From a virus: DNA of 25,409 bases. How positions within the stretch are numbered: the first letter of the stretch is position 1; every line of letters begins with the position of its first letter. Positions 6,952-7,605 of the stretch are shown in pieces. Both the position numbers and the translations under genes were made by a program. The notes under the pieces are model-generated. The model ran no database searches. It was not told the origin of the DNA and saw only the letters and a program-made list of their open reading frames with translations. Where the stretch lies: the IMG/VR virus record IMGVR_UViG_3300013099_000081, positions 1 to 25,409 of that record. One strand, 5' to 3'.

Positions 6952-7605
6952 CTCAATTAACAAAGGCGTTTATCAGCAACTTCAAATCAATGAAGCCGTA
7001 GTGGAACTAAGCGCGCCTTGTAAGATGAATAACTACTGTTCCACGTTTAACGCAACTTAGGAGATACTAAACATGAACTGGACTTAACTAGGGAAAACCC
7101 TACTCCCAGTTGATGGAAATGAAAATTTGGTTGAAAGATACTCACAGCAACTCAACTTCTATGAAAAGAGTATGTATCTTGTTAAAACAACCATATGGAA
7201 GTAACCATATAATACTGGGAGCGGGAAATCACACAACTAGAGATAACCAAGGAAATGTAGTATTAAACCGGGGTGGATTGCCAAAAGCATGAAGCCCCAA
7301 GAGGGAATAAAAGGCACTAACAGCAACTCTATGAATCCAAACTGGCTAGACACCAGTTCATCTAATAGTGCCTTGTTTTATAAAAAGACTCTTACAGCAA
7401 ACCAATGATGTTAAATTCAAAGGTAGTGAAGATAGTAGCTCCGATGAATTATCAAAATGAGTCTTGAGTAATTAAGAAAAGAACTATAATAATAATTGTG
7501 ATTATATTATGTGTAAGTGAAGTATATAAGGGAAGGATTTAAAGACACAAACTGCAATCCAAAAATTTGACTTTTAATCAAAAAAATCGTGTCTTGTTTA
7601 ATTTT
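6952..7605 (+). ncRNA. Candidate large structured RNA: five stem-closed tRNA-like modules
   Basis: There is no convincing gene between thyX and the TROVE-type gene. Five modules are closed by AAG-N4/N4-CTT-type stems: 6963-6969/7013-7019, 7135-7141/7174-7180, 7311-7317/7368-7374 (9 bp in total with the next pair), 7385-7391/7459-7465 and 7542-7548/7589-7595. The variable pairs change on both strands. Three or four bases inside the 5' strand each module has CAGCAA (6974, 7145, 7321, 7395; CTGCAA at 7552), and every 3' strand is followed by G. Other helices: possible pseudoknot GTGGAAC 7001-7007 with GTTCCAC 7038-7044; TAGGG-AAAA-CCCTA 7089-7102; CTCCCAGT 7103-7110 with ACTGGGAG 7214-7221, enclosing module 2; GGTTG/CAACC 7129-7133/7188-7192; ATATGG/CCATAT 7195-7210 region; AACTGG/CCAGTT 7340-7358, 7-base loop. 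The 3' end is uncertain; a U-rich run follows module 5. Confidence 0.75.
7566..7582 (+). other. tRNA-Lys(UUU) anticodon stem-loop mimic inside RNA module 5
   Basis: TTTGA-CTTTTAA-TCAAA forms a 5-bp stem and a 7-base loop with U33, anticodon UUU and two following A residues. The central 15 bases equal, as I recall it, the E. coli tRNA-Lys anticodon arm. It lies inside a 7-bp closing stem (AAGACAC/GTGTCTT) the length of a tRNA acceptor stem. No T-arm or proper D-arm is visible, so it is not a normal tRNA. Confidence 0.7.

Follow-up and report, generated by a model that had tools for sequence, protein, structure and literature searches.

Bacterial Y RNAs, YrlA among them, accompany the Ro60-like protein Rsr, and as a class they are recognized by a gene beside that of a Ro/TROVE-fold protein, by paired 5′ and 3′ ends and by binding to the Ro protein. 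Y RNAs have been reported for mycobacteriophages also (attributed to Chen 2014 by PMC12282133), and in the Listeria phage CKA15 three very abundant, unannotated RNA regions that run in the direction of an Rsr-like gene and lie ≤2 kb upstream of it have been proposed as possible Y RNAs; the Rsr-like protein itself was found in purified virions with 20 peptides and 57.1% coverage (PMC12282133). Here we analyzed IMG/VR virus record IMGVR_UViG_3300013099_000081, a single virus record of 25,409 bases taken in its entirety (hereafter the window), in which five tandem RNA modules (6963–7596) lie directly upstream of an open reading frame (ORF 7621–9084) for a predicted Ro60-like protein, and in which the fifth module carries an apparent mimic of the tRNA-Lys(UUU) anticodon arm. 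Comparison of sequences gives us high confidence in three statements taken together, namely that these modules belong to an RNA family, that this family is linked to phage Ro-like genes and that its members mimic anticodon arms.

Two further systems resemble this locus. The Class I RNAs, described as unique to dictyostelids, are about 60 nt long and have a 6-bp end stem with compensatory changes, an 11-nt motif past the 5′ arm, a variable interior and AAG...CUGU ends, and one direct partner of theirs is the RRM protein Rnp1A (PMC7919456). Phages also defeat tRNA-cutting defenses with tRNAs of their own, such as the T5 tRNA-Lys against PARIS and a phage tRNA-Lys against PrrC170 (PMC12409363, PMC11555353). 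PrrC targets tRNA-Lys, and phage tRNA-Lys rescues phages (PMC11555353). AriB of PARIS cuts Lys(UUU), Thr(UGU), Asn(GUU) and Thr(CGU) tRNAs with no need for modifications, and His(GUG) and Pro(UGG) are its probable minor targets (PMC12409363).

The module array and the Ro-like gene

The modules occupy a 713-nt gap (6908–7620) between a Thy1-like gene (5885–6907) and ORF 7621–9084. Read by eye, this gap contains five copies of one unit, composed of an end stem AAG...CTT, the motif CAGCAA shortly past its 5′ arm and a G past its 3′ arm. A covariance model (R1) built from 40 aligned Lys- or Asn-arm modules of IMG/VR contigs, with the window left out, returned exactly these five modules from the whole window at E up to 10, all on the + strand; E-values of R1 rest on a short calibration. 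Module 1 (6963–7020, E 0.02) has the end stem AAGGCG/CGCCTT, CAGCAA and the 3′ G, and modules 2 (7135–7181, E 8e-5) and 4 (7385–7466, E 1.1e-5) have the same plan. Module 3 (7311–7375, E 4.8e-5) contains an inner hairpin, ACTGG-CTAGACA-CCAGT, the loop of which is not a known anticodon loop.

Module 5 (7542–7596) was matched at 51.5 bits (E 1.5e-10). Its closing stem pairs AAGACAC (7542–7548) with GTGTCTT (7589–7595), the 3′ G is at 7596, and its motif, CTGCAA (7552–7557), is a variant of CAGCAA. The interior holds TTTGA-CTTTTAA-TCAAA (7566–7582, + strand), and the longest string common to the window and Escherichia coli lysT is the 15-nt TTGACTTTTAATCAA, which corresponds to lysT nt 28–42 and window 7567–7581; no further 12-mer is common to the two elsewhere, on either strand. 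The cargo of module 5 is, as read from its sequence, the anticodon arm of tRNA-Lys(UUU). The 17-mer of this arm recurs in Aeromonas phage LAh_8 (L011 2629–2692) and, among the matches listed, in 17 of 99 Lys or Asn modules of IMG/VR. Module 5 was rejected as a tRNA, with 0 tRNA genes in the window by ARAGORN, no Rfam tRNA match and only an anticodon arm present.

An earlier note on this DNA had described the same arm within a 7-bp closing stem, had equated its 15 central bases with the E. coli tRNA-Lys anticodon arm and had denied that it was a usual tRNA. Each of these statements is borne out: the letters are as claimed, R1 supports module 5, and the identity was checked on lysT. The “acceptor-length” stem of that note matches in length alone, this stem being part of an RNA of another architecture. 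Nor is the module an isolated feature as the note treated it, since the closing stem and CAGCAA together mark it as a member of a family associated with the adjacent Ro60-like gene.

The product of ORF 7621–9084 (+ strand) matches PHROG 850, “RNA-binding protein” (phrog_850, 4e-152), and the DUF2828 and DUF7788 domains. Relatives occur in 682 of 50,697 phage records, many of them labeled “Ro-like RNA binding protein”. Among viral contigs a single-protein query recovered one relative, and an alignment query was used instead. An AlphaFold2 model based on 39 relatives (pLDDT 88.9, pTM 0.88) was compared with the PDB by Foldseek, and only four matches had E ≤0.001: Xenopus Ro, two human Ro60 structures and Deinococcus Rsr, the best being 1yvr (7.7e-8, TM 0.57). 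Because all four PDB matches of the model are Ro, the ORF is predicted to encode a Ro-fold protein.

An RNA family linked to phage Ro-like genes

The five modules belong to a family of predicted RNAs with an end stem of about 7–10 bp, CAGCAA usually at nt 11–16, a variable interior and a 3′ G. R1 at E up to 1 gave 147 matches in 85 other Ro loci (587 kb), all 147 on the strand of the Ro gene, whereas at E up to 0.1 it had a single match (E 0.018) among 608 kb of sequence from 69 control or chance-like contigs. The 147 matches are not wholly independent of R1 because some of its source contigs are Ro-locus contigs (e.g., L113 and L078); the window, unlike these, is fully independent of the model. 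A search of 86 dereplicated loci, the window included, for CAGCAA with a flanking stem of at least 7 bp found 169 instances on the Ro strand vs. 13 on the other. When the hexamer was permuted, 14 hexamers gave 6–15 instances on the Ro strand and the fifteenth, AACAGC, which overlaps the motif, gave 63; on the opposite strand, the range was 3–23.

R1 and a strict motif scan together yielded the set of 201 modules used below, counted within about 3 kb of a Ro gene; it includes two 17-nt fragments, and the remaining 199 are at least 40 nt long. This set replaced a relaxed scan allowing one mismatch, which returned 335 modules including chance ones. CAGCAA starts at nt 11 in 155 of the 199 modules, the commonest ends are AAG...CTTG and TAG...CTAG, and arrays hold up to eight modules within the stretches examined. 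The predicted end stem, CAGCAA and 3′ G form the constant handle of the modules. Modules lie near Ro-like genes of Bacillus, Enterococcus, Listeria, Staphylococcus, Aeromonas, Campylobacter, Escherichia and Mycobacterium phages. Scanning the window and seven loci with Rfam at its own cut-offs gave no match other than to tRNAs, and the modules constitute a large RNA family absent from Rfam.

The linkage also holds when read from the modules to the gene. A Ro-like gene was present in 63 of 97 module-bearing viral records (34 of 50 and 29 of 47), and in 23 of the 25 that are at least 100 kb long. None of 50 control records contained one, only three of these controls being ≥100 kb. Of the two long records that lack the gene, L366 looks like a chance match and L105 has a true-looking array. 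A search of the entire L105 record, a 195-kb contig (G005) with several modules, found no Ro-like gene, and a divergent partner is possible. In fetched loci, the closing-stem modules share the strand of the Ro gene in 33 of 33 Lys and 13 of 13 Asn cases, among the matches listed.

With respect to the Ro gene, 136 of the 201 modules are upstream, 99 of them within 500 nt, and 60 are downstream. In the window, a sigma-70-like promoter, TTTACA-16-TATAAT, is located 17 nt ahead of module 1 (6919–6946, + strand); it agrees with the consensus at 11 of 12 positions, is a consensus match only, and is the best of five promoter-like sites in the array stretch (3.6 in shuffles). No terminator-like site was found in that stretch. 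This arrangement would suit an array that serves as a 5′ leader and regulates the Ro gene or phage tRNA clusters, either through arms that are cut or occupied or through unbound Ro-like protein. We consider such a sensor or regulator improbable: the downstream modules, and those that lie among tRNA genes, do not fit a leader, and several different anticodon arms would be needless in it.

tRNA pieces in the module interiors

An anticodon arm was scored as a 5-bp hairpin whose 7-nt loop belongs to a set of 228 real anticodon loops, taken from 1,788 ARAGORN tRNAs of all loci with T loops excluded. Such an arm is present in 40 of 201 modules, as against a mean of 0.6 and a maximum of 3 in 200 shuffles and none with the interiors reversed; restricting the set to loops seen at least three times left 38 modules vs. 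0.42. The largest excess by far is that of 7-nt loops (89 modules vs. 26.7 expected); the counts for other sizes match or modestly exceed expectation (20–48 vs. 22–30).

Lys-UUU is the most frequent arm (nine modules), followed by Asn-GUU (five), Cys-GCA and Pro-UGG (four each); Phe, Gly-UCC, Glu-UUC, Ser-UGA, Ile-GAU and Gln-UUG were found twice each, and Ser-GCU, Arg-ACG, Arg-UCU, Thr-GGU, Thr-UGU and Tyr once each. Lys-UUU is enriched relative to the tRNA genes of the same loci (9 of 40 arms vs. 9 of 319 genes, p 2.5e-5), and the enrichment of Asn is marginal (p 0.04). Arrays mix anticodons: all 11 loci with at least two arms carry different ones, as do 16 of 17 loci selected for Lys or Asn, among the matches listed. 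LysRS and AsnRS both recognize the anticodon, and with Lys and Asn as the commonest arms, the modules might inhibit host translation enzymes such as these, or tRNA-modifying enzymes. This is very improbable in our estimation, given that Pro, Cys, Gly, Ser and Gln arms occur too and that a lytic phage needs translation.

Selection on the arm was examined in IMG/VR with the Lys pattern CAGCAA-N(4-24)-GACTTTTAATC, which gave at least 120 stretches and at least 112 distinct matches. Among the matches listed, 75 have a closing stem, and 58 of these also form an anticodon stem of at least five pairs; of the 37 that lack a closing stem, 3 do. With the motif permuted as a control, the search returned 40 stretches in total and 26 distinct matches, of which six had a closing stem and none had an anticodon stem of five or a Ro gene. 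With the Asn pattern, a closing stem occurs in 33 of 88 matches, and an anticodon stem in 22 of those 33 vs. 8 of the 55 without a closing stem. The 99 Lys or Asn modules among the matches listed show 63 distinct closing stems and 36 versions of the arm, the loop being fixed by the query. In 40 aligned rows, 99.6% of cells are paired, 10 of 12 pairs show changes on both sides, and cells with both sides changed number 125 vs. 35 in shuffles and 6–14 with partners slid. The comparison of 58 in 75 is the cleaner test because the 40 rows had been picked for having both stems.

These changes bear on whether the modules are tRNA genes in decay or, as the earlier note had raised as an alternative, an identity of the att type with a tRNA gene of the host. 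Several arrays do lie inside or beside tRNA clusters, and 15 nt equal E. coli lysT. A constant handle, a single strand and compensatory changes in both stems with the loop unchanged speak against both, the T-arm motif is absent from 29 of the 40 arm-bearing modules, and the 15-nt match falls inside a repeated RNA family. An att site and a tRNA remnant were both rejected, and we regard this explanation as scarcely credible.

Some modules hold larger or different parts of a tRNA. The T-arm motif without an anticodon hairpin occurs in 21 further modules, 10 of them with a D-like stretch after it, and 140 of 201 modules have neither anticodon nor T-arm cargo that can be recognized. In two loci of Bacillus phages (L003 791–917 and 2105–2225; L004 1129–1256), the interior is a permuted tRNA, composed of a T arm, an acceptor-like stem and a D arm, with the end stem at the place of the anticodon stem; these are YrlA-like phage RNAs. 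Longer modules at L018 924–1048 and L078 2870–2968 combine a T arm with an anticodon hairpin of the Ile type, close to a complete tRNA inside the end stem. In Enterococcus phage EF1 (L006 ~2815–2880), a tRNA-like stretch read by eye directly upstream of a module has acceptor, D and T arms and apparently no anticodon arm.

Comparison with YrlA and Class I RNAs

The modules share with Y RNAs two features of the class, a gene adjoining that of a Ro-fold protein and ends joined by a stem, and some of them hold T-arm and then D-arm-like stretches in the permuted order of YrlA. They differ from YrlA in their handle, a short stem with CAGCAA at nt 11–16, in forming arrays of up to eight, and in a cargo that is often an anticodon arm, which YrlA is without. 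The YrlA model (RF02553, cut-off 69 bits) gave no match in the window gap at E up to 10; of two permuted-tRNA modules, one reached 20.1 bits and the other did not match. The D, T and acceptor domain of YrlA is not found in module 5, which has an anticodon arm only.

A role closer to that of YrlA would be a tether or gate, in which the tRNA piece docks tRNA-binding host factors (PNPase, modification enzymes or ligases) onto the Ro-like protein, which would then degrade, repair or quality-control RNA; the tRNA likeness would be a docking site rather than bait. A particle of Ro, Y RNA and PNPase is known in Deinococcus, and YrlA is a substrate of tRNA-modifying enzymes (PMC7790460, PMC8394870). 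In 11 of 201 modules a D-like stretch comes after a T arm, which agrees with this role, as do the RNA ligase and P-loop kinase-like protein encoded in the window. YrlA, however, mimics the D, T and acceptor arms (PMC8394870), whereas here the anticodon arm dominates (40 modules vs. 21 with a T arm only), and general docking leaves the Lys bias unexplained. We consider the tether rather unlikely.

The top match of module 5 in cmscan, a weak one, was the dictyostelid Class I RNA model (RF01414), at 19.7 bits vs. a cut-off of 41.5. Searched against 34 phage records, RF01414 gave 22 matches with E ≤0.01, 21 of which coincide with modules (e.g., NC_048775 15668–20637); the cut-off of 41.5 bits was reached in none of the 34 records. 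At a loose E of 10, it matched 8 of 14 named control genomes, none above the cut-off. Like Class I RNAs, the phage modules are about 60 nt long, with a short end stem, an ACAGCAA-type motif past the 5′ arm and a variable interior; the RF01414 consensus has ACAGCAA, and module 5 has the variant ACTGCAA. They differ in the anticodon arm, which is present in phage modules and is not mentioned for Class I RNAs in the accessible part of PMC7919456. As anatomy, the likeness between the predicted structures is real, and it may reflect either homology or convergence. The module system may be a source or sister of Class I RNAs because the handle is the same in both.

Possible function of the modules

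We propose that the modules partner the phage Ro protein in the manner of Y RNAs and that the tRNA mimics they display are probably decoys for anticodon nucleases, and consider this proposal as a whole evenly poised between right and wrong. By analogy with Y RNAs, the handle (end stem, CAGCAA and 3′ G) would bind the Ro-like protein and leave the interior as variable cargo. The resulting ribonucleoprotein (RNP) would be stable and abundant, and during infection it would hold out the arm of module 5 as bait for host enzymes that recognize the tRNA-Lys anticodon arm. This bait would occupy, or be cut by, PrrC-type anticodon nucleases or AriB of PARIS, so that the real tRNA-Lys survives, and sister modules with Asn, Cys, Pro, Ser, Arg and other arms would widen the protection. 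In the Listeria phage P61, three modules precede the Ro-like gene (L008 2648–2926); this phage is related to CKA15, the abundant RNAs of which would by analogy support the abundance of modules.

A decoy, sensor or ligand had been suggested in the earlier note for what it took to be a one-off module. The module is not a one-off, and the decoy is now the leading hypothesis because the arms recur far above shuffled expectation and Lys-UUU is over-represented. That the arms act as decoys for tRNA-targeting nucleases has, in our judgment, a little less than an even chance of being correct. A competitive inhibition of anticodon nuclease was suggested earlier for the tRNA-like domain of YrlA in Salmonella (PMC7790460). 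The phage tRNAs that defeat such defenses share with module 5 the Lys anticodon arm and, by hypothesis, the same nucleases; they differ as complete tRNAs, the T5 one with cut-resisting changes (PMC12409363, PMC11555353), from module 5, which is an arm only and cannot decode.

Several observations weigh against this proposal. In the minimum-free-energy fold of module 5, the 7-bp closing stem is present and the anticodon hairpin is absent, and all pairs of that hairpin are A-U save one. Its folding energy is no better than that of shuffles (75 of 200 and 27 of 200 shuffles fold as well in two runs), the fold of the entire 713-nt gap is no better than shuffled sequence, and thermodynamic support for the hairpin is weak, its support being comparative. 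Anticodon arms were also scored in 13 reverse-complement interiors, a control that is not zero. The excess of AriB targets among the arms is post hoc and carried by Lys (p = 0.10 without Lys). No module was found in 20 of 86 Ro loci within the stretch examined, and the loci are not phylogenetically independent, so that kinship inflates counts (L056, L069 and L081 have modules in common). PrrC requires a modified A37 (PMC12409363), and Salmonella YrlA RNA was itself uncut by the nuclease studied (PMC7790460). The decoy cannot be the whole story, since 161 of 201 modules are without a recognizable anticodon arm. By the test set in the earlier note, its reading would fall if relatives of this phage carried the module without this loop, and the outcome is mixed: these 161 modules speak for a refutation, and at least 58 distinct IMG/VR matches, which have the loop in a fully paired module, speak the other way.

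Other features of the window

Profile matches identified an RNA ligase (13724–14650), a calcineurin-like phosphoesterase ORF (15283–15861) and an AAA_33 P-loop kinase-like ORF (22141–22590), which are a possible RNA repair set; the ligase and the kinase-like protein fit a phage that encounters RNA damage. A family-B DNA polymerase is encoded by two separate ORFs, 60–626 and 1682–2776 (Pfam DNA_pol_B profile positions 18–145 and 137–236, respectively), with other ORFs between them, which indicates a split gene. A small ORF at 25142–25369 ends in a long aspartate run.

Implications for phage Ro proteins and Class I RNAs

In the literature searched, which included few subscription papers, we found no report of anticodon-arm RNAs beside phage Ro genes or of a phage link to Class I RNA, and the accessible texts contained no tested role for phage Ro-like genes. 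A wider possibility, speculative and on balance unlikely, is that many phage lineages use a modular RNP counter-defense, in which a Ro-like protein, known from the virions of one Listeria phage, carries a panel of small RNAs with the same handle that would serve as decoys for tRNA-cutting immunity, each with a different tRNA piece and the tRNA-Lys anticodon arm foremost, and which is perhaps a source or sister of the Class I RNAs. The readable cargo of the modules predicts the target of each RNA, and the function of the phage Ro protein becomes a question that can be tested against named anticodon nucleases. Class I RNAs, the function of which is unsettled, gain a possible relative for which there is a candidate partner protein.
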